Assembly (NCBI RefSeq): GCF_014137865.1
Contig: NZ_JACGWU010000007.1
Span: 1 to 64,000 of the forward strand
Origin: Alpinimonas psychrophila
Lineage (GTDB): Bacteria > Actinomycetota > Actinomycetes > Actinomycetales > Microbacteriaceae
Direction of reading: 5' to 3'
DNA length: 64,000 bases
Positions 5,970-31,013 of the stretch are shown piece after piece; position 1 is the first letter of the stretch, and each line of letters opens with the position of its first letter. Below the pieces are notes generated by a model. It made no database searches. It was not told where the DNA came from and worked only from the letters and a program-made list of their open reading frames with translations. Position numbers and translations under genes: made by a program.

Positions 5970-8120
5970 ATGGCACGCAGCGTTTATTTAGCCTCGGTTG
6001 AGGGTCACACCGGCAAGTCAACGATTGCGCTGGGAGTGCTTGACGTCTTGCGGCAGTCTTACGACCGCGTCGGCGTTTTTCGCGCGGTAGCCCGCACCGC
6101 GTCCACGCCCGACTACGTGCTGGAGCTGTTACTGGCGCACACCGATGGGCGCCTGAATTACAACGAGTGCGTGGGCGTCACCTACGACGACGTGCATGCC
6201 AACCCCGAAGCTGCCCTGGCCCGCATCGTTGATCGTTACAAGGCGCTCGAAGCCCAGTGTGATGCCGTCGTTATTGTGGGTTCTGATTACACGGATGTCG
6301 GATCCCCCACCGAACTCTCTTATAACGCAAGGGTCGCCACCAACGTGGGCGCGCCCCTGGTGTTGGTTCTGAATGGGCGCGAGTCCTATGATACCGACGA
6401 GCACTTGGGGCAAGCGCCACCCCGAAGCGCCGAGGACCTTAAGCGCATCTCCGAGCTGGCGCTCGTCGAACTTGTCCACGAACACTCCACTCTCGCCGGC
6501 GTCATGGTCAATCGGGCGGATGGCGCCGACACCGCGGCCATCACTGTTGCCGTCACGGCAACCCTTCCCGCGGGGGTTCCCGTGTGGGTCGTCACCGATG
6601 ATCCCTCGTTGGCGGCGCCAAGAATGACGGATGTCACCACGGCGGTCAACGGCACCCTCGTTTTTGGCTCCGAAGATCGCCTCCAGACCGAGGCCCTCGA
6701 GGTTGTCGTCGCCGCCATGTCGATGGTCAATGTGCTGCTCCGGCTGTTGCCCGGCGCGGTCGTTGTCGTGCCCTCCGACCGCACGGAAGTGTTGCTGGCC
6801 CTAGTCATGGCGGATGCCGCAGAGACGTTCCCGAACTTGGCCGGCATCGTGCTGAACGGCGGTTTCGAGATCCCGGAGCCCGTGGCGCGCCTCTTGCACG
6901 GGCTCAACTCCACCCTGCCTGTCGTCGCCACGACCGGCGGAAGCTTCGACACGACCGTGAGCGTGATCCGCACCCGCGGTCGCCTTGAAGTGGGAGATGC
7001 CGAAAAAGTGGCTAAAGCGCGGGCGGTGTTCGCGGCCCACGTGAACGGCGCCGATCTCATGGCTCGAATTGAAGCGTCGCAGACTTCTGTCGTCACGCCT
7101 CTTCTCTTTGAATATGCCCTCGCCGCTAAGGCGCGGGCAGCGCAACGCCACGTTGTTTTGCCCGAGGGCGGGGATGACCGCATTCTGAGCGCGGCCGCCG
7201 AGATCTTGGCCAAGAAGATCGCCCGCATTACGATTTTGGGTGACCCCGCGACGGTGGCTAGCCGCGCTGCTGCGCTCGGGCTGGACCTGGGTGGGGCATC
7301 CGTTATCTCTGTTCATGACCCGGAGCTGAGTGAACTCTTTGCCACCGAATACGCGCGGCTTCGTTCTCACAAGGGTGTCACCTTGGAACGCGCGCGTGAG
7401 GTGATGAAGGGCGACGCCTACTTCGCCACGATGATGGTGCAGCTGGGCTTGGCTGACGGTATGGTGTCGGGCGCGGTCAACACCACGGCGAACACGATTC
7501 GGCCGGCTTTTGAGATTGTCAAGACACAACCGGATGTCTCGATCGTCTCGAGTGTCTTCTTCATGGCCCTCGCCGACCGAGTTCTGGTCTACGGCGACTG
7601 CGCGGTAGTACCCGACCCCACGGCGGAACAGCTGGCTGACATTGCAATTTCCTCCGCGGAGACGGCGCGCAGTTTCGGCATCGAACCGCGCATCGCCATG
7701 CTGTCGTATTCGACCGGAACATCGGGCTCGGGAAGTGACGTAGAGAAGGTACGGATCGCCACTGCGTTGGTGCGCGAGCGCCGCCCTGATCTCGTCATCG
7801 AGGGACCCATCCAATATGACGCCGCCGTGGATGTGGCAATCGCCGCGGCAAAACTTCCTGAATCCCGCGGGGCAGGCAACGCGACCGTCTTCATCTTCCC
7901 CGACCTCAATACGGGCAACAACACCTATAAGGCGGTGCAGCGAACGGCCGGTGCCGTTGCCATTGGGCCCATTCTTCAGGGGCTGCGCAAACCCATCAAC
8001 GACCTTTCGCGTGGGGCACGGGTGAGCGATATCGTCAACACGATCGCGATCACCGCGATCCAGGCCGCTACCTTGGATTCTGCCGTTCCGTCGTCCACTC
8101 CGAACGAAACCCAACGATGA
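5970..8120 (+). CDS. pta: Phosphate acetyltransferase
   Basis: About 716 residues; converts acetyl-CoA and phosphate to acetyl phosphate. The long type: a P-loop-like N-terminal domain (residues 1-200, SVYLASVEGHTGKST) and a DRTGG-type middle region (about 200-360), then the catalytic PTA_PTB domain (about 375-700) with VVLPEGGDDRILSAA, FATMMVQLGLADGMVSGAVN and FIFPDLNTGNNTYKAVQRT. ATG 5970 is preferred over an in-frame GTG at 5961 because AGGGTGG is correctly spaced from it. The stop overlaps ackA by four bases. Confidence 0.95.
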   Translation: MARSVYLASVEGHTGKSTIALGVLDVLRQSYDRVGVFRAVARTASTPDYVLELLLAHTDGRLNYNECVGVTYDDVHANPEAALARIVDRYKALEAQCDAVVIVGSDYTDVGSPTELSYNARVATNVGAPLVLVLNGRESYDTDEHLGQAPPRSAEDLKRISELALVELVHEHSTLAGVMVNRADGADTAAITVAVTATLPAGVPVWVVTDDPSLAAPRMTDVTTAVNGTLVFGSEDRLQTEALEVVVAAMSMVNVLLRLLPGAVVVVPSDRTEVLLALVMADAAETFPNLAGIVLNGGFEIPEPVARLLHGLNSTLPVVATTGGSFDTTVSVIRTRGRLEVGDAEKVAKARAVFAAHVNGADLMARIEASQTSVVTPLLFEYALAAKARAAQRHVVLPEGGDDRILSAAAEILAKKIARITILGDPATVASRAAALGLDLGGASVISVHDPELSELFATEYARLRSHKGVTLERAREVMKGDAYFATMMVQLGLADGMVSGAVNTTANTIRPAFEIVKTQPDVSIVSSVFFMALADRVLVYGDCAVVPDPTAEQLADIAISSAETARSFGIEPRIAMLSYSTGTSGSGSDVEKVRIATALVRERRPDLVIEGPIQYDAAVDVAIAAAKLPESRGAGNATVFIFPDLNTGNNTYKAVQRTAGAVAIGPILQGLRKPINDLSRGARVSDIVNTIAITAIQAATLDSAVPSSTPNETQR

Positions 8121-9241
8121 AGCCAATCTTGGTGGTCAACAGCGGATCATCCTCGCTGAAATACCAGCTCATCGATATGGTCACCGAAGAAGTTCTGGCG
8201 CACGGGCTCCTAGAGAGAGTCAGCGATCACGGTGTGGCGTTTGCGCAGATGTTGAAGGAGATTGCCGCGGGGGAGCCTCGCTTAGAAGGCATTTCCCCGG
8301 TCGCGGTGGGACATCGTGTCGTTCATGGCGGCACCGCCTTTTCGCAAGCCACGGTTGTCACCGATCAGGTGTTGACCCAAATTCATGAGCTGGCGTCACT
8401 AGCGCCCTTGCACAACCCCGGCAATCTGGCCGGGATCGAGGCCGCCATCGCCGCTTTCCCCGACGTGCCCCACGTTGCTGTCTTTGACACGGCATTCCAC
8501 CAGAGTTTGGCCCCGGCCTCGTATACCTATGCCATCGATACCGCGGTGGCCAGCAAGCACCACATCAGGCGCTACGGATTCCATGGCACCAGCCACTCCT
8601 ACGTCGCGTCGCGTACGGCCGAATTTCTCGGGCGCGATCTCGCCGACCTCAAGATCATCGTGTTGCACCTCGGTAACGGGGCCTCCGCTTGCGCGATCGA
8701 TTGCGGGCGCTCCATTGAGACCTCGATGGGCATGACCCCGTTGGAGGGGTTGGTGATGGGCAGCCGCTCGGGAGACCTGGACCCCGCTATCTTGATGTAC
8801 CTGTCTCGCGTCGCCGATTACACCCCCGATCAGCTGGATCTTCTTTTGAACCGGGAGAGCGGCCTTGTGGGGCTCACCGGGCTGAACGACATGCGTGACG
8901 TGTCGCTCGCCGCCACAGCGGGGGACCCTCGGTCAACGCTGGCGCTCGAGATCTATGCGCATCGGATCCGTCATTATGTGGGCGCGTATTTTGCGTTATT
9001 GGGTGGGCTCGACGCGGTGGTCTTCACGGCCGGTGTCGGCGAAAATTCTGCGGATGTTCGCGCGCGCGTGATTGTCCCCCTCGCGCATCTGGGGCTCACC
9101 CTCGACGAGTCCCGGAATGCCGTGAGCGGTGGTGGTGCTCGCAAGATTTCGGGGGAGGGTGCCGCGGTAAGCGTGCTCGTGATTCCGACAAACGAAGAGC
9201 TGGAAATAGCCCGGCAACTGTTGGACGTGCTCGAAGCGTAG
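8117..9241 (+). CDS. ackA: Acetate kinase
   Basis: A 374-residue ASKHA-fold kinase that transfers phosphate between acetyl phosphate and ADP, forming acetate and ATP. Visible motifs: the N-terminal nucleotide loop VNSGSSSLKYQL, HRVVHGG, the PLHNP segment, FHGTSHSYV, the ETSMGMTPLEGLVMGSRSGD phosphate-binding stretch and FTAGVGEN near the C-terminus. Slightly shorter than the usual 395-400 residues, because the region around residues 65-75 is compact. It overlaps pta (ATGA), so the acetate overflow/assimilation pathway is one operon. Confidence 0.96.
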   Translation: MKPILVVNSGSSSLKYQLIDMVTEEVLAHGLLERVSDHGVAFAQMLKEIAAGEPRLEGISPVAVGHRVVHGGTAFSQATVVTDQVLTQIHELASLAPLHNPGNLAGIEAAIAAFPDVPHVAVFDTAFHQSLAPASYTYAIDTAVASKHHIRRYGFHGTSHSYVASRTAEFLGRDLADLKIIVLHLGNGASACAIDCGRSIETSMGMTPLEGLVMGSRSGDLDPAILMYLSRVADYTPDQLDLLLNRESGLVGLTGLNDMRDVSLAATAGDPRSTLALEIYAHRIRHYVGAYFALLGGLDAVVFTAGVGENSADVRARVIVPLAHLGLTLDESRNAVSGGGARKISGEGAAVSVLVIPTNEELEIARQLLDVLEA

Positions 9242-19691: not shown

Positions 19692-21014
19692 GTGCGCATT
19701 TCTGTGATTGGGTGCGGCTACTTGGGGGCAGTGCACGCTGCGGCCATGGCCGACGTGGGTCATGATGTCGTTGGAATCGACGTCGATGTTGCCAAAATTG
19801 CATTGCTCTCCGCGGGAAAGACCCCCTTTTTTGAGCCCGGATTACCGGAGATCTTGGCCTCGGCATTAGCCAGCGGGCGCCTCACCTTTACGACTGATAT
19901 TTCTGTGGCCTCGCGGTGCGACGTGCACTTCATTGCCGTGGGGACCCCGCAAAGCGCTGGTAGCAATGCGGCCGACATGCGGTTCGTCGATGCCGCAGTG
20001 ACGGCGCTCATTCCGCACCTCAACGACGGTGATCTCGTCGTTGGCAAGAGCACGGTACCCGTGGGAACAGCGGCTCGCTTGAGGGACATGATTGGGGCCT
20101 CAGGCTCAGCGGCCGAGCTCGCCTGGAATCCCGAATTCTTGCGTGAGGGACACGCGGTGACCGACACTATTTCCCCCGATCGCCTGGTCTACGGAATTGC
20201 CCCCGGAGATCGTCATGACGAATCTTTGCGCCTGTTGAACGCGGTCTATGCCTCGGCACTGGCCGCGGGTACCCCCGTTGTCGTTACCGACCTTGCCACG
20301 GCCGAACTGGTGAAGACTGCGGCCAACGCATTTTTGGCCACCAAGATCAGTTTCATCAATGCTATGAGTGAGATTACGGATGCGGTGGGGGCCAACATTA
20401 CCGAGCTCGCAGATGCCATTGGCTATGACGCTCGCATTGGTCGACGATTTCTTAACGCCGGGGTGGGCTTTGGGGGTGGATGTTTGCCAAAAGATATTCG
20501 AGCATTTGTCGCCCGCGCTGAGGAGTTGGGGCAGGGAGAATCCGTTGCCTTCCTCACAGAGGTAGATGTTATTAATCAACGTCAGCGCTCTAGAGTGACG
20601 AAGCTCGTCTGTGATGCTGTCACGCGCCAAGGCATCGAGGTGACGTCCGCTCGCATTGCGGTCTTGGGGCTTGCCTTCAAGCCTCACTCTGACGACGTAC
20701 GAGACTCTCCCGCCTTGGACGTTGCGCGCAACCTAGGTGCCCTCGGTGCCGATATCATCGCCTTTGATCCCGAGGCCAATGCGTCAGCGCAGGCTCGATT
20801 CCCCGCCCTCGTCACGGCGACCAGCATCGACGTCGTTCTAGCGGGCGCAGATGTGATTGTGCTCGTCACGGAATGGCCAGAATTTGTGGCCCTTGATCCC
20901 GTTCACGTGGCCACACTGGTGAGGCATCGTGCCATTGTTGACGCTCGAAACGTGCTGGACGCACAAGCCTGGCGAGCAGCGGGTTTCACCTTTGTGAGCA
21001 TGGGCCGTCCTTAA
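19692..21014 (+). CDS. ugd: UDP-glucose 6-dehydrogenase
   Basis: A 440-residue NAD-dependent enzyme that makes UDP-glucuronate for surface polysaccharides. N-terminal Rossmann domain VIGCGYLGAVHAAAMADVGH, FEPGLPEIL, the ATAELVKTAANAFLATKISF central helix, catalytic Cys264 in GVGFGGGCLPKDI, and the C-terminal nucleotide domain starting VLGLAFKPHSDDVRDSPAL. GTG 19692 has AAGGA eight bases upstream; longer readings begin inside tdk. It lies 11 bases after tdk. Confidence 0.93.
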   Translation: MRISVIGCGYLGAVHAAAMADVGHDVVGIDVDVAKIALLSAGKTPFFEPGLPEILASALASGRLTFTTDISVASRCDVHFIAVGTPQSAGSNAADMRFVDAAVTALIPHLNDGDLVVGKSTVPVGTAARLRDMIGASGSAAELAWNPEFLREGHAVTDTISPDRLVYGIAPGDRHDESLRLLNAVYASALAAGTPVVVTDLATAELVKTAANAFLATKISFINAMSEITDAVGANITELADAIGYDARIGRRFLNAGVGFGGGCLPKDIRAFVARAEELGQGESVAFLTEVDVINQRQRSRVTKLVCDAVTRQGIEVTSARIAVLGLAFKPHSDDVRDSPALDVARNLGALGADIIAFDPEANASAQARFPALVTATSIDVVLAGADVIVLVTEWPEFVALDPVHVATLVRHRAIVDARNVLDAQAWRAAGFTFVSMGRP

Positions 21015-21054
21015 GGCTTTTCATCTGCTCCGAACTTAGCGTAAAGATAAAAAA

Positions 21055-21090
21055 CAAGCGGTGCGACCCTTGTGAGGATCGCACCGCTTG
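21055..21090 (-). terminator. Terminator of the permease operon
   Basis: Perfect 12-bp stem CAAGCGGTGCGA (21055-21066) with TCGCACCGCTTG (21079-21090), 12-base loop. On the minus strand it is followed by a T run (the A run at 21049-21054), as expected for the end of the amidohydrolase-permease transcript. It may also stop reads from ugd. Confidence 0.85.
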
Positions 21091-21112
21091 TGCCCCACGG
21101 GACGGGCGGTTC

Positions 21113-22489
21113 CTATTCCTTCAGGTCGAGCATGGGGGTCTTACGCTTGAAGCCACGGGTGAGCACTAAGAGATAGACGAACCCAATCGCAAGCCAAATG
21201 AGGCCTACGGTAAGAGCGCGCGGCGAGAGGCTCGTCCACAGCCAGAGCGTCAAGGCAACACCAATCGCAGGCACGACGAAGTAGATCAGGGTGTTCACTC
21301 CGCCGCGTTTCTTTTCGTCAAAGAAGTAGTGCTTGATAACCGAGAGGTTAACCGCCGTGAACGCAATGAGTGCCCCGAAGCTGATCATCTCGGCGAGGAG
21401 ACTCAGGTCGATCCAGATTGCCGCGAGCGAGATGACCGACACAATCAGGATGGACAACACCGGGGTGCTGAAGCGAACGCTGATGCGTCCAAAGACGCGG
21501 CGGGGAAGAACTCCGTCTCGTCCCATCGCGAACAGGATGCGCGATACCGATGCCTGCGACGTTAACGCCGACCCCATTGCGCCGGCTACATAGGCGGCGA
21601 TGAAGAAGGTGGAGAGGAATGCTCCGCCGGCCTTGACCATGACGTCGAGGGACGCGGCATCCACGCTCGTAAATGCAGCGTTGTCGGGCAGGACCAACTG
21701 GCTGAGCCACGCGAGAAAAATGAAGATGAGTCCCGCGGCGATGGTCGTTATCATGATGGCCTTGGGCAGGCTGCGCTTGGGGTCGCGCGTCTCTTCGGCC
21801 AGTGTCGACACGGAGTCGAAACCGAGGAAGGAAAGGCACAGAACCGCGGCGCCGGCGACGAGTGGTCCGAATCCTGAGGTGCTTCCGTCTCCCGTGAAAG
21901 GCGCGAGGAGGTCGACGCTGGTGCCACTGTTGACGGCGCCCACGGACATGGCGGCAAAAACCACAATGAAGATAATCTGGATGGCCAGAATCAGAATGTT
22001 TGCGCGGGCCACCGAGACGATTCCGATGATGTTGAGAAAGGTCACGATAGCAATCGTGGCCAGAACGAAGATCCAGGCGGGAACATCCGGGAAAGCGGCG
22101 TGCAGATACAGACCGATGACGAGGTAGTTAATCATGGGCAAGAAGAGATAGTCGAGCATGAGCGCCCACCCCGTCAGAAAGCCCAATCCAGGGCCGAAGC
22201 TGCGCTGAGTGTACGTGTAGGCCGAACCGGCAAACGGATAGGCTCGCGCCATCTGGCCGTAGGAGCGTGCCGTGAAGACCATGGCAATGAGGGTGACAAT
22301 GTAAGCCGCCGGTAGGCGCCCACCCGTCAGCTGGGTCACGAAACCGTAGGTGGTGAAGACCGTCAGGGGAACCATATAGACGAGGCCGAATAGCACCAGA
22401 GAGGGAACGCCCAAGACGCGTTTGAGGTGCCCCTGTTCGGCGCCGCCCATCATGGTCTTTGCTGATTCGGAGTTTGTTTCTACAGCCAT
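21113..22489 (-). CDS. APC superfamily amino acid/amine permease
   Basis: A 458-residue membrane transporter with about 12 helices. Family hallmarks: VLFGLVYMVPLTVFTTYGFV in helix 1, MARAYPFAGSAYTYTQRSFG before helix 3, and FLGFDSVSTLAEETRDPKRS between helices 6 and 7. Substrate cannot be read; amino acids or amines are usual. AGGA lies eight bases before the ATG. It starts 19 bases after the amidohydrolase stop on the same strand, so the two form an operon that probably imports and hydrolyses the same N-acyl or amide compound. Confidence 0.88.
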   Translation of the reverse strand: MAVETNSESAKTMMGGAEQGHLKRVLGVPSLVLFGLVYMVPLTVFTTYGFVTQLTGGRLPAAYIVTLIAMVFTARSYGQMARAYPFAGSAYTYTQRSFGPGLGFLTGWALMLDYLFLPMINYLVIGLYLHAAFPDVPAWIFVLATIAIVTFLNIIGIVSVARANILILAIQIIFIVVFAAMSVGAVNSGTSVDLLAPFTGDGSTSGFGPLVAGAAVLCLSFLGFDSVSTLAEETRDPKRSLPKAIMITTIAAGLIFIFLAWLSQLVLPDNAAFTSVDAASLDVMVKAGGAFLSTFFIAAYVAGAMGSALTSQASVSRILFAMGRDGVLPRRVFGRISVRFSTPVLSILIVSVISLAAIWIDLSLLAEMISFGALIAFTAVNLSVIKHYFFDEKKRGGVNTLIYFVVPAIGVALTLWLWTSLSPRALTVGLIWLAIGFVYLLVLTRGFKRKTPMLDLKE

Positions 22490-22508
22490 GGAGGTGTCCT
22501 ATTCGTTG

Positions 22509-24197
22509 TTATTTGTTGTGCGCGGAATGCGTCGTTGCACCCGCGAGGTAGGTACCCAAAATGCCGATGGTCGGCATGAGAGAAGGTGTCGTGGCTCGGG
22601 GATCGGCTGAGAGCCAGACGAGGTCGGCACTGGCGCCAATCTCGATGATGCCCCACGGGGCTCCCGTCAGGTCGGCGAAAGCCTGTTTCGCGACTCCCGT
22701 CGAGTATGCCGCCAAGGCTGTTTCGGCAGAGATGATTTCGCGTGGAACCCACCCCCCTTCGGGGAGACCATCATTGGTGGTGCGCGATGTCGCTACAGCG
22801 ATGCCATCAAGGGGCGCAGCGGAGGAGACGGGCCAGTCAGACCCGAAGGCCAGAGACGCCCCAGACTCCGTCAGCGAGGCCATCTGATATTGCCGGGCGC
22901 TGCGTTCTGTGCCCAGGCGAGGAACGGTCAGCACCATCATGAGCGCATCCAGCTGCGCCCACAGCGGTTGCATGGTTGCTATCACGCCGAGAGAGGCAAA
23001 CCGCGCCAGATCGGCAGCATCGGCTAATTGAACGTGAGCAACAACCGCGCGGCGGTCGCGAGGACCGTTCACGGCGTTGGCGTGTTCGATGGCATCCAGT
23101 GCAACGCGCACGGCGGCATCCCCAATGGCATGAATGTGGGTTTGAAATCCTTCAGCATCGATAGTCGCAACGGCGCTCGCGAGGTCTTCGGGGGTCCATA
23201 CCAGCATGCCGTGATCGTGCAACCCGGAGCAGTAGGGCTCTAGGAGCGCCCCTGTTTCGTTTTCCACGACGCCATCGGCGAAGAACTTGATGCTGTGGGC
23301 GGTGAGGAGAGGGTGTCCGAGGGCCTCGACGCGATCACGCGCTGCGATGAGGGCCGGGAGGGACGCCGGAAACGTTCGAGGGTCCGCGAGAAAAGCGAGA
23401 TTGATGCGCGTGGAGAGGGCGCCCTGCGTCGCGGCCGCGAGAAACGCGTCAATGTCGGTACCCTCGACCCAGGCATCCTGCACCCAGGTCACACCGAGTC
23501 CCGCGTAGTGTGCCGTCGCCCGTCGCAGCGCCTCCACTTTTTGGTCGAGGGTGAAAGGAGGGCAGACGGCACTCAACAGATCGATGGCTCCCCACTCACG
23601 CAGGGTGCCCAGGGGGGACCCATCGGCTCGGCGGGGAATTTCTCCGAGCACCGGTTCTGGGCTGTCTGCCGTAATTTCCGCGAGTTCAAGTGCGCGGCTG
23701 TTGCACCACACCGTGTGGTAGTCCCAGGCGCGCAGCATGACGGGACGATCGCTGACAGCTTCGTCTAGCCAGCGCGCATCGAAGAGCCCGTTCGGAGCGA
23801 GGCTGCCGTCGTAGGAGGCTCCGACGATCCATTCCTGCTCGGGGTTGGCCTCAGCAAAGCGTCGGACTTCCTCCACGATTTCGGCGACGCTCTGACCGGC
23901 CCGCACACGGGGGCCAAATTCCTCGAGTCCGCCATAGAGGGGATGCGCGTGGCCATCGCCAAAGGAGGGCATCAGAAACCCTCCGCCCAAGTCCACGTGG
24001 GTGATTTCTAAGCTCGACGTGGCTACAGCCGCCAACGCGTCCTCGTCAAGAGCAACAATGCGGCCGCCCTGCACGAGGAGTGCGGAGGCATCGGTTTTAT
24101 CTGCTCCCTGCCAGATCACTCCGTTTTCAAACAGCACAGAATTGGCACTGCCATCGGAGGAGAACGGGAGGGCTTTTGCGCCTAAGGAGTTTGACAA
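22509..24197 (-). CDS. YtcJ-type amidohydrolase
   Basis: A metal-dependent hydrolase of the amidohydrolase superfamily, about 542-562 residues. After a short beta-sandwich segment (ALLVQGGRIVALDEDAL) come the metal ligands in MPSFGDGHAHPLYGG, SYDGSLAPNGLFDARWLDE, a HIHAIGDAAVRVALDA segment, and FGSDWPVSSAAPLDGI near the end. Substrate unknown. TTG 24197 has GGAG upstream; GTG 24137 (LFENGVIW) is an equally plausible start. The frame is open to 24287 and beyond, but that would place the TetR operator at 24225-24245 within the gene. Confidence 0.85.
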   Translation of the reverse strand: MSNSLGAKALPFSSDGSANSVLFENGVIWQGADKTDASALLVQGGRIVALDEDALAAVATSSLEITHVDLGGGFLMPSFGDGHAHPLYGGLEEFGPRVRAGQSVAEIVEEVRRFAEANPEQEWIVGASYDGSLAPNGLFDARWLDEAVSDRPVMLRAWDYHTVWCNSRALELAEITADSPEPVLGEIPRRADGSPLGTLREWGAIDLLSAVCPPFTLDQKVEALRRATAHYAGLGVTWVQDAWVEGTDIDAFLAAATQGALSTRINLAFLADPRTFPASLPALIAARDRVEALGHPLLTAHSIKFFADGVVENETGALLEPYCSGLHDHGMLVWTPEDLASAVATIDAEGFQTHIHAIGDAAVRVALDAIEHANAVNGPRDRRAVVAHVQLADAADLARFASLGVIATMQPLWAQLDALMMVLTVPRLGTERSARQYQMASLTESGASLAFGSDWPVSSAAPLDGIAVATSRTTNDGLPEGGWVPREIISAETALAAYSTGVAKQAFADLTGAPWGIIEIGASADLVWLSADPRATTPSLMPTIGILGTYLAGATTHSAHNK

Positions 24198-24224
24198 GAA
24201 GGGTGCTCCAGAGAGAGGTGTCAA

Positions 24225-24245
24225 AATACGAACGACGTTCGTATT
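24225..24245. promoter_or_regulatory. Perfect 10-1-10 palindrome between tetR and the amidohydrolase
   Basis: AATACGAACG (24225-24234), one central A, then CGTTCGTATT (24236-24245). It lies in the divergent gap, next to a TTGACA -35-like box for the minus strand (24219-24224). Size and symmetry are those of a TetR operator, so the adjacent TetR probably controls both directions. Confidence 0.85.
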
Positions 24246-24302
24246 GAGTAGAGTAGCGGTTTCCGAGAAGAAAACGTGAATAGTCATTCTGGGAGGAGCC
24301 CG

Positions 24303-24929
24303 GTGGTACTTAAGCCTCGCCAAATTGCGCTCGCCGCGCTTGATCTCGTCGATACTGACGGGAGCGAAGCCCTGACCATGAAGCGGCTCGCGACACGATT
24401 GAATCGTCGGCCATCCTCGCTGTACAACCACATTGAGGGCCGTGTTGATCTCATCGAGCGCATGAGAGCGCTCATTGTTGAGGACATCGACGTGTCGTTC
24501 TTCGCTCTTAAAGACTGGGACGATGCTTTGCAGGATTGGGCCTATTCCTATCTGGCAGCGTTCGCCGCTCGCCCAAACTGCATTCGCCTGCTCGCGACGA
24601 CCCCCATCACCGATCCGTCGACGCTGCGAATGTATGAGACCGTTGTCAGCGCACTGTGCTCGGCGGGGTGGCCCGATGGTGACGCAGTGGCCGTAATGCG
24701 CACGGTTGAAGCTCACGTCCTGGGTTCTGCGCTAGATATCGTCGCCCCCGAGTCGTTGCTCACCGCCGAGGTCGTTCCCCGCGAGCTGGTCTCGTTGCGC
24801 CGGTCTCTCGATCCGGCGAACGTGAAACATTCCACTGCGCGTTTTGCCTTTAGGCTCGGAATCCCCGCGCTCATCGCCGGGCTCGCGAAAGGTCTGAGGC
24901 ACGAGGCAAAAGATGAAACGAAGGGATGA
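24303..24929 (+). CDS. TetR family transcriptional regulator
   Basis: A 208-residue repressor. N-terminal HTH in residues 1-50 (RQIALAALDLVDTDGSEALT, MKRLATRLNRRPSSLYNHIE), followed by an all-helical ligand domain with a TetR_C-like pattern. GTG 24303 is chosen because GGAGGA (24292-24297) is ideally placed; an earlier in-frame GTG at 24276 has no ribosome binding site. It is divergent from the amidohydrolase-permease operon with a 21-bp palindrome between them, and its stop overlaps the next LuxR-type gene (ATGA). Confidence 0.9.
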   Translation: MVLKPRQIALAALDLVDTDGSEALTMKRLATRLNRRPSSLYNHIEGRVDLIERMRALIVEDIDVSFFALKDWDDALQDWAYSYLAAFAARPNCIRLLATTPITDPSTLRMYETVVSALCSAGWPDGDAVAVMRTVEAHVLGSALDIVAPESLLTAEVVPRELVSLRRSLDPANVKHSTARFAFRLGIPALIAGLAKGLRHEAKDETKG

Positions 24930-26014
24930 CAATCATTCCTGAGGTGACCGGTACCTTCTCCGACCACGGCGATCCCGGGACGTGGTCGATTCGCCATGTC
25001 ATCCGGTCGATGGCACGCGGCAATGCCGACGACGTGATTCCGCAGAGTACAGCGGAGCTCATGCAACGGTTCCTTCGAGACCTGCACGATATTCTCCCCT
25101 ATGACGCTGCTCAGTTACTCGTTTTTGACCGCACAAATGACCGACATCATGAGCTTGCCAGGGAAGGATACTCGAGTCTGGTTGCGGGGGTCATGGCTCA
25201 TGAATTCACCAAGGATTGGCCTAAGCCAATCTGGCTCCCGGTGAACCCGGGGGACAATTTGCCTCCCACGATCGGATCCGAGCAGGACCTTCCTGACAGC
25301 TTTCGACGGTCAGCGATTTACCTTAACTTCCTGCATCCAGCGGGTTACCGCGATGGTCTCACCTTCGAGCTGAACCACCGCGGTCGCTATGTCGGCCTTG
25401 TCAATATTTCGTCGAAGACTCCTCACTTCTATTCCGATGAGATTCGACGTCGCAGCCAAGCAATGAGTTCAATTCTGGGATTCGTTGCGAACGCCACCGC
25501 TCGCGAAATGGAACGAGTTCCCTCCCATTCTCGCGCGGCGGTTCTCTCGCGAGACGGGCACATCGCACCTCTTGCCGGTCGAGGCCAGTCTCGACTCGCC
25601 CAGCAACCCGAATTCTTGTCGGCCCTTGTTCCCTTGTTCACCATGGTCGGCGAAGACGTGTATTTTCTGTGGGATCTCGACCGCCAGTGGTACAGAGTTC
25701 ACGTCCAGCATCAGAGGGACGATTCCATGCAGGGCGCGGAGCATCTCATTATCGTCGAAGCACCGATCAGTCGGCCCTTTAGCCTGACTCCCACCGAGAT
25801 CCGCGTTCTGACGTACATGTCTTCGTGCCCGTCAAACGAGGCCATTGCCGTTGCCCTGAGCATCAGTATTCGAACCGTTCACTCGCACGTGGCAAGCATT
25901 TTGGCCAAGTTGGATTGCTCCCGGCGTTCGCAAGCTGTTTCGAGCGCCATTCGGAACGGACTCTTCCGCCCCGAGCCCAATACGCTGGCGTCGCTCGAGC
26001 GAATTGTTACATAA
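24926..26014 (+). CDS. LuxR-type regulator with GAF-like N-terminus
   Basis: A 362-residue regulator. Residues 40-190 look like a GAF-type sensory domain (ILPYDAAQLLVFDRTND, YVGLVNISSKTPHFYSDEIR); the C-terminal 65 residues are a LuxR HTH (LTPTEIRVLTYMSSC, NEAIAVALSISIRTVHSHVA, SILAKLDC). There is no receiver domain, so it probably senses a ligand directly. It is translationally coupled to the TetR gene and lies 155 bases upstream of the ABC transporter/deacetylase operon, which it may control (inference from position). Confidence 0.85.
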   Translation: MTIIPEVTGTFSDHGDPGTWSIRHVIRSMARGNADDVIPQSTAELMQRFLRDLHDILPYDAAQLLVFDRTNDRHHELAREGYSSLVAGVMAHEFTKDWPKPIWLPVNPGDNLPPTIGSEQDLPDSFRRSAIYLNFLHPAGYRDGLTFELNHRGRYVGLVNISSKTPHFYSDEIRRRSQAMSSILGFVANATAREMERVPSHSRAAVLSRDGHIAPLAGRGQSRLAQQPEFLSALVPLFTMVGEDVYFLWDLDRQWYRVHVQHQRDDSMQGAEHLIIVEAPISRPFSLTPTEIRVLTYMSSCPSNEAIAVALSISIRTVHSHVASILAKLDCSRRSQAVSSAIRNGLFRPEPNTLASLERIVT

Positions 26015-26061
26015 ACGTCTTCAAAACGTCGGTATTTATGCCGATAACGCCGCCTCGTGCA

Positions 26062-26142
26062 AAACCTAGACTCCCCAACAAGGACTTTGCAGCACCCTTT
26101 CGTTGAGGGTGGCTCACGGTATCTAGGTTTCGCCCCCCCCCC
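26062..26142. repeat. 9-bp inverted repeat and ten-C tract before the ABC operon
   Basis: AAACCTAGA (26062-26070) and its reverse complement TCTAGGTTT (26122-26130) are separated by 51 bases, followed by ten consecutive C at 26133-26142, 27 bases upstream of ATG 26170. The arms could form a regulator site or fold the leader RNA. Homopolymer runs of this length are prone to slippage. Confidence 0.6.
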
Positions 26143-26169
26143 ACTCCAATTAGAAAAGAGGCAATACGA

Positions 26170-27147
26170 ATGTTGTCAAAGAAAATCCTCGGTGGAATAA
26201 GTATCGCTCTTGCATTTGCTCTCTCCCTTGCGGGTTGCTCATCAAGTCCAGTAGCAGACAGCCCAGCCGAAAGCAAAGGCGCCATTGCGATGAGCTTTGG
26301 TGGTCTCGACATTCCCATCTGGAATGACATGTTGTCCATCATGGAACCACAGATAACCGCCGCGGGTTATAAGTTCCTCACCGATGACCCTAAATGGGAC
26401 ATCCAGACCCAGGTATCGGATTGGCAAAATTGGGTCCAGCGTGGTGACGTCAAGACAATCATGGGCTACCCCGTCCAATCGGATTCAATGGTGAACGTCA
26501 CGCAAGAGGCTCAAAACGCTGGGATTTCAGTTCTTGGCTATGCCGGCAAATGGGAGGGGACCTCTTTTTCCCTCGTTTTGAACAACTTCGAGGACGGCAA
26601 GACGCTGGGCGAAGCTGCCGGAAAGTGGATCATCGATAAGTACGGTAAAACGACACCTCAACCCGTCGCTCTTCTCGGTTACTGGGAAACGGACCTCGGC
26701 CGTGAACGATCCGAGGGCATTAAAGCCGGCCTCGCTTCGAGCGGTGCCAACGTGACAATCAATGAGCTGTCCGTCATCAACCTTGATGATGGCTACAAGG
26801 CGGCTCAGAACCAGTTGGCGGCATTCCCTGACACGAAAATCTTCTTGGGCATGGCTTCCGAACCCACTGAAGGGGCTTACCAGTTCCTCATGGACTCGGG
26901 CGTAGCGCCAGATGATGACAGTTACCTGTTGGGGGCGCTAGATGCCACAGATTCGATTCTCGATATTTACCTCACCCCGAACTCAATCTGGCACCTCAGC
27001 TATATCCTCCCCGCGAAATCCCTTGCCGACGCTATGGTCAAAATGATGATTGGCGCCGCGGAAGGAACGCTCACGGCAGATATTGAAATCGCTTCAACGC
27101 AGGTCACCCGCGAGAACGCGGCGTCCTTCTATTCTGCAAAGAACTAG
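26170..27147 (+). CDS. Ribose-type ABC transporter substrate-binding lipoprotein
   Basis: A 325-residue secreted lipoprotein: signal peptide with lipobox LAGC (Cys at about residue 22), a Ser-rich linker, then a Peripla_BP_4-type fold (GAIAMSFGGLDIPIWNDMLS, DVKTIMGYPVQSDSMVNVTQ, ISVLGYAGKWEG). This class binds pentoses, autoinducer-2 and related small polar ligands. GAGGCAAT lies upstream of the ATG. First gene of a four-gene operon with ATPase, permease and a deacetylase-like hydrolase, which suggests the ligand may be an N-acetylated compound. Confidence 0.88.
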   Translation: MLSKKILGGISIALAFALSLAGCSSSPVADSPAESKGAIAMSFGGLDIPIWNDMLSIMEPQITAAGYKFLTDDPKWDIQTQVSDWQNWVQRGDVKTIMGYPVQSDSMVNVTQEAQNAGISVLGYAGKWEGTSFSLVLNNFEDGKTLGEAAGKWIIDKYGKTTPQPVALLGYWETDLGRERSEGIKAGLASSGANVTINELSVINLDDGYKAAQNQLAAFPDTKIFLGMASEPTEGAYQFLMDSGVAPDDDSYLLGALDATDSILDIYLTPNSIWHLSYILPAKSLADAMVKMMIGAAEGTLTADIEIASTQVTRENAASFYSAKN

Positions 27148-27159
27148 GGCGGCAAGACA

Positions 27160-28668
27160 ATGAGTCTTGCCAGCGCCGTTGTGGCGCCCCGCCTTGAATT
27201 CCGCAACCTTACGGTTGATTTTGGAGCGACGAGGGCACTGAACGCCATCACCGCCTCTATTCAACCGGGAGAAATTGTCGGGCTCTTGGGCCACAACGGC
27301 GCTGGCAAAACCACCCTGTTCAACGTTGTCGCAGGAGCAAACCCTGCGACGTCGGGAACTTTTCTCCTCGGATACGAAGAAATTTCCCAGAAAATTACCC
27401 CGCGGGAAATTGCCTCCAAGGGCGTGACGGTTCTCTATCAAGACCCTGCTCTCACCGGTAATCTCAGTGTTCTTGACAATCTCTATCTTGCTCAATTGGC
27501 CCCATTTTCTCGCCCCGACCGTGCTCAGGCTGCTGCCGCCCTGGAACGTGTGGGAAGTGATCTTGATCTCGATCAACTGGTCGATACTCTCAGCTTGGGC
27601 GAACGTCAGCTTGTGGCGCTAGCCCGGGGCCTGCTCGGCAAGGACATGAAAGTTCTTCTCCTCGATGAGCCAACCGCCGCCCTGGGTCTCAAAGAAACAG
27701 AGGCTCTGCATTCGCTCATTAGAAAGTTCGCGAAGGAAGGTGTTGCGGTTGTCTACGTCTCACACCGCCTGCCTGACATCCTGCAGGTGTGTCAACGCAT
27801 CATCATTTTGTCTGCTGGTGAAATTGTCGCCGATGGCCCGGTCACGGACTACGACGCTAGAAAGCTCGCCCGCGCACTCGCTCCGGGACTTCTTGAAGTC
27901 GAACGGAGTGAGCTCGTTCTCGGCCAGGCACTCCTGAGCGTTAAGCATGCCGGCACCCCACTCTCGTTTCGAGAGGGCGAAGTTGTCGGACTCTTCGGCA
28001 TGGCTGGGGGCGAGCAATTCGCCATTCTTGAACGACTCTTTGGTCTCAAGGGCAAATATTCTACGGTTCTCTCGGGTCTTTTATTGGAGGTCAGCAATCC
28101 TTTGTCTGCGATGAAGCAAGGAATCCACCTTGTCCCTGCTGATCGCGAAAAGGACGGCCTCATCTCAGGCATGAGCGCTGCGGAAAATACTTTCCTTCCG
28201 TGGTATCGCACGATTGCGGGACGCGGGTGGTGGGTTTCTCGAGATACCGGGAACGCGGATTACGATTCCGCTCGTGAACGACTCAATATTTTGGGTCCCA
28301 CGCGTGCCTCCACGATCGATCAGTTCAGCGGAGGTAATCGGCAAAAGCATCTCATCGCTCGATGGATGTTCGTGAAGCGGCCAAAAATATTGCTGTTGGC
28401 TCAACCTACGCAGGGCGTAGATGTTGGCGCCAAAGCAGACATTGTTCGCGCGGTCAGAGCAATGGCAGCTCAGGGCACAATCGTCATCGTGGCTTCCGCT
28501 GAATCTGATGAGATTGCCAGCATCTGTGACCGCTCCTACATCCTTTTTCATGATCACGTTCGCGAGCGCACGGCGGCAAAAGGGTTTGACGAGCAATTGC
28601 TCGCCGATCTCCTCGATCTCGCCCAGCCGCAGCCCCATTCCCAGCCCGATCTGCTTCAGAAAAATTGA
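27160..28668 (+). CDS. RbsA/MglA-type ABC transporter ATP-binding protein
   Basis: A 502-residue tandem ATPase. First domain complete: Walker A GLLGHNGAGKTTLF, signature LSLGERQLVALARGL, Walker B VLLLDEPTAALG. The second domain has the signature FSGGNRQKHLIARW and a Walker-B-like ILLLAQPTQGVD, in which Asp-Glu of the usual LLLDEP is replaced by Ala-Gln, and a degenerate Walker A (GLFGMAGGEQFA). A non-catalytic second site is usual in this family. Twelve bases downstream of the binding protein, before the permease. Confidence 0.92.
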   Translation: MSLASAVVAPRLEFRNLTVDFGATRALNAITASIQPGEIVGLLGHNGAGKTTLFNVVAGANPATSGTFLLGYEEISQKITPREIASKGVTVLYQDPALTGNLSVLDNLYLAQLAPFSRPDRAQAAAALERVGSDLDLDQLVDTLSLGERQLVALARGLLGKDMKVLLLDEPTAALGLKETEALHSLIRKFAKEGVAVVYVSHRLPDILQVCQRIIILSAGEIVADGPVTDYDARKLARALAPGLLEVERSELVLGQALLSVKHAGTPLSFREGEVVGLFGMAGGEQFAILERLFGLKGKYSTVLSGLLLEVSNPLSAMKQGIHLVPADREKDGLISGMSAAENTFLPWYRTIAGRGWWVSRDTGNADYDSARERLNILGPTRASTIDQFSGGNRQKHLIARWMFVKRPKILLLAQPTQGVDVGAKADIVRAVRAMAAQGTIVIVASAESDEIASICDRSYILFHDHVRERTAAKGFDEQLLADLLDLAQPQPHSQPDLLQKN

Positions 28669-28677
28669 GGACCCCTC

Positions 28678-29694
28678 GTGTCGAATAAGAATTCACTGGC
28701 CCTTTTTGCTGCTCGCAACGGCATTTTCATGGCCTTGATTGTGTTGGTTGCGTTCTTTAGTCTGCTCAACAAGAACTTCCTCACCTTCGGCAACGCAGAA
28801 AATATCATTCTGCAATCAGCCGAACTGGGAATCGTCGCGATCCCACTAGCCTTTCTCCTCATTTCAGGTTCCGTCGATCTCTCGATCGGGGCTGTTGCCT
28901 CGGCGGCCGCGGTGACTTCCGGGCTCGTGATGGCGGCAACGCAGAACACCCTGTTAGGAATCGGCGCGGGACTCGCCCTCGGCCTCGTCGCAGGTGCTAT
29001 CAACGGCTTTCTCGTCTCGTATGTCAAGCTCAATCCCATTGTGGTGACGTTAGGTTTCTTGAGCATCTGGGCCGGCTATGCCCAACTGGTCACCTCGGGG
29101 CGCACGGTTCAACGGTCTTCACTGCCAGAAGATTTTCGTAGTCTTGGCACAGCATCCATTGGCCCCGTTCCCCTCCAAATCGTGCTCCTCGCCATTGTGG
29201 TGGTTCTCGGTTGGTACGTACTGAACCGCACGCGTTTTGGCAAAGAAACCCTCGCAATCGGTGGTAACGAAAAGGCCGCGTACCTCATGGGGGTGAGTGT
29301 CCAGCTCCGACGCTTCCAGATATTCATCGCCTCGGGAGTGGCCGCTTCGATTACCGGGATGCTCCTCACCGCAAAAGTGCAGTCCGCTAGCCCCGTCATC
29401 GGAACCGGCATGGAACTCGCCGCTCTCACCGTGGTGTTGCTGGGGGGGATTGCCTTCGAGGGCGGAATCGGTCGTATAAGTGGCGTGGTTGCCGGCCTTC
29501 TGTTCTTCAAGGTGCTTAATAACGGATTGGTGTTCCTGCAGGCGTCCGCATTCCTCCAGACAATTCTGGTGGGTGCGACATTGGTCATTGCCGTGGCCCT
29601 GGACAGCACGATCCAAGAGGTAGTCAAAAAAGCGCGACGCCAAATTCTCCAGCGCGTCACCCCCAAATCCGACATCACTACAACGGCTCGTTGA
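28678..29694 (+). CDS. RbsC-type ABC transporter permease
   Basis: A 338-residue integral membrane protein with about 8-10 helices of the BPD_transp_2 family: IPLAFLLISGSVDLSIGAVA near residue 60, VVTLGFLSIWAGYAQLVTSG, and the coupling segment GGNEKAAYLMGVSVQLRRFQ, then LAALTVVLLGGIAFEGGIGR. One permease is present, expected to dimerise. Start GTG 28678 is nine bases after the ATPase stop with GAGGA upstream. Confidence 0.92.
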   Translation: MSNKNSLALFAARNGIFMALIVLVAFFSLLNKNFLTFGNAENIILQSAELGIVAIPLAFLLISGSVDLSIGAVASAAAVTSGLVMAATQNTLLGIGAGLALGLVAGAINGFLVSYVKLNPIVVTLGFLSIWAGYAQLVTSGRTVQRSSLPEDFRSLGTASIGPVPLQIVLLAIVVVLGWYVLNRTRFGKETLAIGGNEKAAYLMGVSVQLRRFQIFIASGVAASITGMLLTAKVQSASPVIGTGMELAALTVVLLGGIAFEGGIGRISGVVAGLLFFKVLNNGLVFLQASAFLQTILVGATLVIAVALDSTIQEVVKKARRQILQRVTPKSDITTTAR

Positions 29695-29709
29695 AGTAAG
29701 GAAGAGAAG

Positions 29710-30828
29710 ATGAGAACAACGGGATACGTCTGGCATGAACGCTACTCATGGCACGACACCGGTACTTTTGCGGGCATCATCGCGCCCGGGTCAACTGTCC
29801 AGCCGTTTCATAACTTTGAATCGGCGGATTCGAAGTCCCGGTTCAACAGTCTCGTTGAGGTGAGCAGTCTCATTGACCACCTTGTCAAGGTTCCTGCTCG
29901 CATCGCAACAGACGAAGATATCCTCCGCATCCACACGCCGCGCCATCTCGATTTCATCAAGAATCAGAGTGAACTTGTCGTCGGCGATGCCGGTGACGGC
30001 TGGTCGCCTTTTGGGCACAAGGGCATTGAAATCGCGCGTCTCGCCGCGGGTGGTACGATCGCTGCAGTTGACGCTGTCCTTCGCGGTGACGTGACCAATG
30101 CATATGCCCTCGTGCGTCCTCCCGGACACCACGCTGAACGGGACATGGGAATGGGCTACTGTATTTTTGCGAATATCCCCATTGCAATCGAATGGGCCCG
30201 AGCCAACCATGGCATAGAGCGAATTGCCGTCGTCGACTTCGACATCCATCACGGCAATGGCACACAAAGTATTTTTGCCGACGACCCAAATGTGCTGACG
30301 ATCTCCTTGCACCAGGATCGCCTTTTTCCCCAAGACAGCGGATACGTCACCGAGACTGGCGGTTCAGGGGCCGAAGGATCCGCACTCAACGTGCCGCTGC
30401 CAGCGGGGACCGGTAACGGTGCCTATGCGGCTGCTTTCGAGCGGCTGGTTCTGCCCGCCTTGCGCAATTTCAAGCCGGAAGCGATCTTTGTCGCCAGTGG
30501 TTTTGACGCCTCAGCGGTCGATCCCCTCGGTTGTATGACACTCACGGCGACCGCTTATCGACAGATGACGGCTTCGTTGGTCACCGTGGCCGACGAGTTA
30601 TGTGACGGCAGGCTCATCATGTCGCACGAGGGCGGTTACTCACCTGTTTACGTGCCCTATTGTGGCTTGGCCGTACTGGAGGAATTGTGTGGATTCGAAA
30701 CGGGCATCCCCGATCCATTTGAATTTTCCTTCGGCAATTCCCCAGCACATGCCCTTACGCAGGCTCAGGATGACGTTTTGAACGTTGCCGAAAATATTGC
30801 ACGGCAGATGCAACTTATCGTCGGCTAG
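29710..30828 (+). CDS. Class II histone-deacetylase-like amidohydrolase
   Basis: A 372-residue zinc hydrolase of the arginase/deacetylase superfamily. Visible motifs: RPPGHHAERDMGMGYC (tandem His pair), VVDFDIHHGNGTQSIF (Asp and His zinc ligands), SLHQDRLFP and ASGFDASAVDPLG (second zinc Asp). Bacterial members remove acetyl groups from acetylpolyamines, acetoin-related proteins or other amides. Here it is the last gene of a ribose-type ABC import operon (15 bases after the permease, AGGAAGAGA before the ATG), so its substrate is probably the imported compound. A strong terminator follows. Confidence 0.92.
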   Translation: MRTTGYVWHERYSWHDTGTFAGIIAPGSTVQPFHNFESADSKSRFNSLVEVSSLIDHLVKVPARIATDEDILRIHTPRHLDFIKNQSELVVGDAGDGWSPFGHKGIEIARLAAGGTIAAVDAVLRGDVTNAYALVRPPGHHAERDMGMGYCIFANIPIAIEWARANHGIERIAVVDFDIHHGNGTQSIFADDPNVLTISLHQDRLFPQDSGYVTETGGSGAEGSALNVPLPAGTGNGAYAAAFERLVLPALRNFKPEAIFVASGFDASAVDPLGCMTLTATAYRQMTASLVTVADELCDGRLIMSHEGGYSPVYVPYCGLAVLEELCGFETGIPDPFEFSFGNSPAHALTQAQDDVLNVAENIARQMQLIVG

Positions 30829-30843
30829 CGGAGCCCTAGCAAT

Positions 30844-30884
30844 AAAGGAAACCTCCGAACGCGTAGGCTCGGAGGTTTCCTTTT
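30844..30884 (+). terminator. Intrinsic terminator of the ABC/deacetylase operon
   Basis: A 15-bp stem (30844-30858 with 30869-30883) around the core GGAAACCTCCGA/TCGGAGGTTTCC, ten-base loop, then TTTT. The A-rich left flank also suits termination of the minus-strand tRNA-Pro. Confidence 0.9.
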
Positions 30885-30903
30885 GTCTTGAGACATCACA
30901 GAG

Positions 30904-30977
30904 TCGGGATGACAGGAATTGAACCTGCGACCTCGTCGTCCCGAACGACGCGCGCTACCAAACTGCGCCACACCCCG
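30904..30977 (-). tRNA. tRNA-Pro(CGG)
   Basis: Complete cloverleaf on the minus strand: acceptor CGGGGTG with CATCCCG, D-loop region GCGCAGTTTGGTAGCGC, anticodon loop TTCGGGA with anticodon CGG, T-loop GGTTCAATTCC. The CCA end is not encoded. Confidence 0.95.
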
Positions 30978-31013
30978 CGGTGTTGCTAGCAGTCTAAACC
31001 CGTTGGTGCAGGC

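Follow-up and report, generated by a model that had tools for sequence, protein, structure and literature searches.

The stretch of DNA analysed here (hereafter ‘the window’: positions 1 to 64,000 of contig NZ_JACGWU010000007.1 from Alpinimonas psychrophila, whose genome amounts to 2.24 Mb in 12 contigs) carries, between positions 24303 and 30828, a ribose-type (CUT2) ATP-binding cassette (ABC) importer encoded beside a histone deacetylase (HDAC)-like amidohydrolase. Reading along the plus strand, with E-values given after each profile, a TetR-family regulator (24303..24929; PF02909, TetR_C_1, 4.3e-11; closest solved chain 2g7g, 1.8e-38) is followed by a LuxR-type regulator with a GerE helix-turn-helix (HTH; 24926..26014; PF00196, 4e-13), a CUT2 substrate-binding lipoprotein (26170..27147; PF13407, Peripla_BP_4, 3.2e-19), a double-domain ATPase of the RbsA/AraG type (27160..28668; PF00005, ABC_tran, 4.6e-37, in two stretches), an RbsC/AraH-type permease (28678..29694; PF02653, BPD_transp_2, 7.9e-38) and the class II HDAC-like amidohydrolase itself (29710..30828; PF00850, Hist_deacetyl, 3.1e-83). 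That binding protein, tandem ATPase, permease and hydrolase are consecutive, with two regulators 5' of them, had been described in an earlier note on this DNA, and Pfam confirms the assignment for all six plus-strand genes. The same note called the set ‘fused in an operon’; the genes are indeed adjacent, with successive gaps of -4, 155, 12, 9 and 15 nt, but there is no literal fusion, and the 155-bp gap between the LuxR and binding-protein genes means that regulators and transporter may be transcribed separately.

The gene unit reaches past these limits. A divergent arm on the minus strand, running from 21113 to about 24137, encodes a YtcJ-type amidohydrolase (22509..24137; PF07969, Amidohydro_3, 5.7e-76) and an APC-family amino acid/amine permease (21113..22489; PF00324, 1.4e-41; PF13520, 2.2e-38), after which a consensus scan predicts a terminator-like hairpin on the same strand (21054..21091; 17-bp stem, T-rich tail). 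The open reading frame (ORF) of the amidohydrolase is open to 24716, its likely start being a GTG at 24137 without a clear ribosome site. Between the two arms lies a perfect palindrome (24225..24245), the probable TetR operator; this and the second amidohydrolase, on which a good deal of the argument below rests, had been overlooked by the earlier note, which had the other six genes right. The longest ORF for the TetR protein begins at 24276, and the GTG at 24303, with GGGAGGAG just 5' of it, appears the likelier start. A 12-nt imperfect inverted repeat in the gap between the LuxR and binding-protein genes (arms 26059-26070 and 26122-26133) is a possible regulator site.

The HDAC-like protein contains a full-length Hist_deacetyl domain (residues 44-324 against profile positions 11-296 of 298, 280 bits) and has nearly whole-length matches in the PDB to HDAH (1zz0, 5e-107; presumably the enzyme of strain FB188), a propanil hydrolase (9gku, 1.4e-99) and a dimethoate hydrolase (9gkw, 5.6e-97). 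Residues H140, H141, D176, D178, H180, D266 and Y310 are all present; H140 and H141, D178, H180 and D266, and Y310 align with the same residues of 1zz0, and we take them to be the tandem His pair, the three zinc ligands and the catalytic Tyr, respectively. The tandem His, the D-H-D motif and the Tyr are invariant in 10/10 aligned HDAC sequences (that of the window plus nine relatives). Sharing the zinc site and the catalytic tyrosine, the enzyme resembles the bacterial class II HDAHs (HDAH, PA3774, DmhA and PrpH) and is predicted to hydrolyse an N-acyl bond. At the gatekeeper position it has PLG (residues 272-274) instead of the PEG of HDAC10 or the PIS of bacterial polyamine deacetylases (ApaH) described in passages of PMC11532494; whilst family and chemistry are shared with those enzymes, this difference makes it probable that the protein is not a polyamine deacetylase. 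Its match to the acetylpolyamine amidohydrolase APAH (6phr) is weaker (2e-33), and polyamine deacetylation was set aside as first choice on these two grounds. The best PDB matches include PrpH and DmhA, which belong to sub-cluster 1b of PMC11532494 and are treated in the relevant passages of that paper as deacetylases that moved to small-molecule amides.

A profile search with the binding protein located this protein in 11/398 genomes of the window’s family and in 5/245 genomes of the Micrococcaceae, the family of Arthrobacter terricola; a scan of genome contigs gave two loci, A. terricola being one of the five Micrococcaceae. In two overlapping class-wide samples it was found in 1/394 and 1/345 genomes, the window’s own genome both times. 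The set comprises 18 loci (labelled L below, and genomes G) from 17 genomes of Microbacteriaceae and Micrococcaceae. An HDAC gene adjoins the transporter, at 19-337 nt, in 10 of the 18, in both families (the window, L015, L017, L034, L035, L036, L057, L058, L059 and L060). A PF07969 gene is likewise present within the fetched stretch at 10 loci (the window, L002, L003, L034 and L037-L042); the nearest such gene is ≤3 kb from the transporter in nine of them and 5.3 kb past the permease in L034, a match that may be due to chance given this distance and the 16 such genes of that genome. All eight loci without an adjacent HDAC carry a PF07969 gene within 3 kb, so that 18/18 have one enzyme or the other. 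Across the first 14 loci, random placement of PF07969 genes would lead one to expect about 0.65 with such a gene in the stretch, and 10 were observed; two of these loci, L039 and L040, are sisters and almost identical. The simplest reading is that an N-acylated amine is taken up and deacylated within the cell, two unrelated amide hydrolases serving the same importer family in different genomes. A lack of co-conservation of deacetylase and transporter, one of the two findings that the earlier note had said would refute its proposal, is not borne out, since the HDAC gene adjoins the transporter at ten loci in two families; the other eight have a YtcJ-type amidohydrolase in place of an adjacent HDAC, and the HDAC is therefore not obligatory.

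Three supported clades, {window, L036}, {L015, L017, L034, L035} and {L057-L060}, recur in the HDAC and binding-protein trees, as expected if HDAC and transporter travel together. The trees leave the order among the shared clades unresolved, some long branches meeting in the HDAC tree, and the label mapped on to them requires three changes on the HDAC tree and on the binding-protein tree alike.

All of the HxH, Lys, His, His and Asp motifs, which we take to form the metal site of PF07969, can be located in the window’s YtcJ-type protein. Genes 46% identical to it are found in L002 and L037, and genes 52-55% identical to the APC permease in L002, L037 and L057-L060 (7/18 loci, including the window). 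The matched PDB relatives of the YtcJ-type protein are limited to the uncharacterised entries 3icj and 3igh. By domain and motifs it is like other YtcJ-type members of PF07969, a family that, as described in part of a preprint (PMC13081902), includes N-acyl amide hydrolases such as NfdA and the metallo bile salt hydrolases; since characterised enzymes of this kind exist, the YtcJ-type and HDAC-like proteins may be alternatives to one another or act on different acyl bonds.

Further enzymes accompany the importer elsewhere. Three of the 18 loci (L002, L037 and L038) encode a class III aminotransferase, which near the transporter in L002 (4260-7127) and L037 (15000-17954) is fused to an APH kinase (for L037, NF004800 at 1223.6 bits, cut-off 973); aldehyde dehydrogenases (ALDHs) are found in L038-L041 (4/18) and a flavin adenine dinucleotide (FAD) amine oxidoreductase in L036 (1/18). 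An FAD oxidoreductase also lies beyond the L057-L060 loci in 3/3 genomes for which that flank was fetched (L063-L065). The Micrococcaceae loci L057-L060 (4/18) carry, in addition, HyuA and HyuB, a C45/AAT hydrolase, a PF01522 deacetylase and two SDRs. Partners such as these point to a product with an amino group. Beyond its FAD oxidoreductase, L036 has a polar amino acid-type ABC transporter, and polysaccharide genes on its other side, none of which is a pointer to the substrate. As a separate observation, at two loci that have no CUT2 transporter (L019 and L022) the HDAC gene stands beside genes for a methylmalonate-semialdehyde-type ALDH and an FAD amine oxidoreductase, and a class III aminotransferase gene lies some 7 kb away.

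Similar HDACs were found in 28 plasmid records, none of which gave a match to the binding protein at E ≤ 1e-25. Contexts were taken from 15 stretches of these records, and those of Embleya, Shinella oryzae and Rhodococcus opacus were dropped as they bear no annotation there. Counting by hand same-strand runs (gaps ≤350 bp) that contain a transporter gene, the HDAC sits in such a run in 9/12 annotated contexts, against 21/80 control genes drawn from six stretches, at places chosen by round coordinates, in 6 of the 12 records (Fisher p 0.0017). The transporters are of several kinds: SSS symporters (Rhodococcus, Burkholderia), branched-chain-type (HAAT) ABC systems (Shinella, Roseovarius, Variovorax), a two-permease, two-ATPase ABC system that we read as peptide-type (Pseudorhizobium), an ABC ATPase (Rhizobium; H13, where the HDAC match is split in two and lacks a gene annotation), an APC permease (Micromonospora) and an MFS protein (Klebsiella). 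The runs of Leisingera, Pantoea and Novosphingobium (3/12) have no transporter. YtcJ-type genes flank the HDAC in the Rhodococcus and Novosphingobium plasmids, and also in L014. The Klebsiella MFS-hdaH pair adjoins a gene annotated as a monoamine regulon regulator, in a stretch that also has genes named puuB and feaB, and the Pantoea HDAC has a homoprotocatechuate (hpa) cluster a few genes away; these two contexts hint at aromatic amines.

The palindrome between the divergent arms, 21 bp and perfect (AATACGAACG-A-CGTTCGTATT), occurs at one place in the genome when up to two mismatches are allowed, and the same pattern written backwards at none; we regard it as a probable TetR operator common to both arms. 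In L002 (Microbacterium oleivorans), which has a 37% identical TetR divergent to the binding-protein gene, AATGAACGACGTTCATT (8765-8781) holds the same 11-bp core as the window palindrome. It falls between the TetR domain (7905-8486) and the start of the binding-protein gene (8914), within the 5' end region of the TetR ORF when this is read at its maximum length; the core is found only at these two sites, in the window and L002, in the 851,404 bases of loci scanned. The LuxR regulator has a 55% identical counterpart in L036, and its N-terminal part gave only weak, uninformative PDB matches (E 0.008-0.035). Other loci differ in their regulators: AsnC-type proteins adjoin the HDAC in L015, L017, L034 and L035, with another AsnC type in L037, and LuxR regulators with a Peripla_BP_6/5 domain adjoin the HDAC-ABC cluster in L057-L060. 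The architecture of the latter can be seen in L060 (3777-5486, minus strand) and L057 (13373-15106, plus strand), where a LuxR-type HTH at about residues 80-135 precedes a Peripla_BP_6 domain.

We think it reasonably likely that the locus directs TetR-controlled uptake, and N-deacylation inside the cell, of an N-acylated (most likely N-acetylated) amine. From the gene content, catalytic residues, palindrome position and conserved neighbourhood, all of which are read from sequence, we infer an amide substrate, inward transport, the order of the steps, and the binding of the TetR protein together with its inducer. A neutral amide would be captured extracellularly by the binding lipoprotein and imported through the permease with its double ATPase; the cytoplasmic zinc HDAC-like enzyme would then cleave the N-acyl bond to give a free amine and a short-chain acid, with an arylalkyl- or omega-amine slightly favoured over a polyamine as the product. 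The divergent YtcJ-type metallo-amidohydrolase may cleave an additional amide or an alternative one (another acyl group, for instance); the APC permease may move an amino-acid-like or amine partner or product. The TetR protein would sit on the palindrome between the arms until released by substrate or product, the LuxR protein presumably providing a second input. More tentatively, and at somewhat less than even odds, such bacterial class II ‘histone deacetylases’ could in essence serve to deacylate imported N-acylated amines for catabolism, with their genes repeatedly tied to the importer that suits the acylamine (CUT2, HAAT- or peptide-type ABC, SSS, MFS or APC), sometimes together with a YtcJ-type enzyme acting on another acyl bond; in that case the window would hold the CUT2 version.

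Several observations weigh against this proposal. The window itself lacks relatives of the aminotransferases, ALDHs and amine oxidoreductases of the other loci. The nearest neighbour of the window-L036 pair in the HDAC tree is an HDAC not linked to the transporter (L014; 85/92), and in G483 the HDAC is on a different contig from either transporter. When 13 transporter genomes were searched, leaving out those of L057-L060 in which the HDAC is adjacent, a close HDAC was found in seven and none at E ≤ 1e-60 in six; in a 299-genome sample of the family, 3/10 HDAC matches (in 9 genomes, at E ≤ 1e-80) adjoin the transporter. In fold, the binding protein resembles many sugar-binding proteins to about the same degree. 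For the operator, the 11-bp core has a chance expectation of about 0.8 in the bases scanned, so that the evidence lies in the position of the sites and not in their count, and neither L037 nor L042, whose TetR relatives are 41% and 30% identical, showed the core beside the TetR gene. Finally, PA3774 and HDAH act on acetyl-lysine substrates, according to passages of PMC4784309, and those of PMC11532494 describe DmhA as an active lysine deacylase too, albeit weaker than other enzymes of its sub-cluster.

Amongst the alternatives to an imported N-acylamine, the one that survives best, although we consider it unlikely, is catabolism of a lactam or other cyclic amide: a lactam, imide or hydantoin-like compound would be imported and opened by the YtcJ-type enzyme here, or by HyuAB/PF01522 enzymes in relatives, the HDAC removing a side acyl group or handling the opened product. 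The HyuA/HyuB and PF01522 genes of L057-L060 (4/18) would fit this, as would the M20 enzymes that occur in L017, L039 and L040. The G837 pair of HyuA and HyuB is nearest the caprolactamase subunits CapA and CapB (479 and 236 bits against cut-offs of 1000), and L063, which lies beyond L060 in this genome, encodes an aminobutyraldehyde-dehydrogenase-type ALDH (705.8 bits, cut-off 615) and a class III aminotransferase. The caprolactam pathway includes an ALDH step. The presence beside the G837 locus of HyuAB, class III aminotransferase and ALDH is reminiscent of that pathway (CapAB and an aminotransferase, as set out in part of PMC6061476). Unlike it, the window has no HyuAB, the relatives’ scores are far under the CapAB cut-offs, and HyuA/HyuB matches were detected neither in the window nor in the other 13 loci outside L057-L060; simple lactams, moreover, need no N-deacylase.

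Less probable again is an ordinary sugar importer that happens to lie beside an HDAC gene. The system has the CUT2 layout of adjacent PF13407 binding protein, double ABC ATPase and PF02653 permease, resembling RbsABC and AraFGH in its lipoprotein (lipobox LAGC with C23, as read by eye), double ATPase, single permease and Pfam families, and its best profile matches, too, are to CUT2 sugar transporters. All NCBIfam matches shown are, however, below their curated cut-offs (RbsB 43 of 337 bits; AraG 292.6 of 689; the ATPase matches shown are the 25 best among 188), and no sugar enzymes are found among the annotated neighbours. A structure model of the binding protein (mean predicted local distance difference test score, pLDDT, 86.2) has its best Z of 27.8 (278 residues, 2.7 A) among sugar-binding proteins, with neighbouring rows tied; such searches did not separate ligand classes. 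We aligned 14 relatives with Escherichia coli RbsB, for which we take N13, F16, D89, R90, R141, N190, D215 and Q235 to be the sugar contacts. D215 is kept in 14/14 and R141 is Arg in 11/14, in keeping with a sugar ligand, but N13, D89, R90 and N190 are replaced in 14/14, positions F16 and R90 both being Trp throughout; the region of Q235 is poorly aligned. These substitutions hint at a bulky or aromatic ligand, and no more than hint, because other sugar-binding proteins likewise differ at these RbsB positions. The recurrent linkage to HDAC and YtcJ-type genes also argues against a chance neighbour.

It seems to us improbable that the HDAC deacetylates lysines of proteins and thereby controls the transporter or some metabolic enzyme, in the manner of AcuC. 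AcuC regulates acetyl-CoA synthetase by lysine deacetylation, and the acetyl-lysine activities of PA3774, HDAH and DmhA mentioned above favour such a role. Against it, the linked transporters vary (ABC, SSS, MFS and APC) whilst amide and amine chemistry recurs, and the lysine deacylase activity of PrpH is given as almost undetectable in the passages concerned of PMC11532494. An N-acetylated amino sugar, suggested in the earlier note by the pairing of a ribose-type importer with a deacetylase, is very improbable indeed, there being no NagA/NagB-type protein, sugar phosphate isomerase/deaminase or sugar kinase among the annotated neighbours (which are a part of all neighbours), where amine, aldehyde and amide enzymes are found and the sole gene with a sugar-kinase fold is that of the pyridoxal kinase PdxY in L039 and L040; the note’s more general idea of an N-acylated substrate taken up through a ribose-type importer remains the best supported. 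The pdxY gene follows a same-family permease (L039 12858-13703, 381 bits against a cut-off of 292; L040 13074-13919), and the ligand at these two loci may differ.

Some further features of the window and its relatives deserve mention. A tRNA-Pro gene lies on the opposite strand about 75 nt beyond the HDAC gene, and is the only known RNA element at gathering score between 20000 and 34000; a scan of 21000-31000 returned no sigma-70-type promoters, shuffled sequences averaging 3.4. A run of ten C (26133-26142), 27 nt 5' of the start codon of the binding-protein gene, may represent a leader prone to slippage or have arisen in assembly. A second palindrome, with perfect 17-bp arms around 2 nt, is located at 122-157 of the window. 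In L016 (4361-8553), the ORFs adjoining a predicted symporter and a non-linked HDAC resemble cas1 and cas9 genes on visual inspection.

The component families of the proposed N-acylamine system are all known; neither the way they are combined nor the association of bacterial class II HDAHs with dedicated importers was described in the literature searched, where several searches, covering a fraction of the matching papers, yielded no recognised description of the operon, and the terms ‘transporter’, ‘genomic context’ and ‘gene neighborhood’ do not occur in the main text of PMC11532494. The window enzyme differs from the characterised HDAHs in being genetically tied to an importer of its own and to another amidohydrolase. 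PMC4784309 states that the natural substrate of HDAH is unknown, and importer-linked loci therefore offer a practical route to it: the ligand of the binding protein should be the substrate of the enzyme, or close to it. If the proposal is true, the ligand range of ribose-type importers would be wider than sugars, and loci of this kind may reveal the natural purpose of some bacterial ‘histone deacetylases’.

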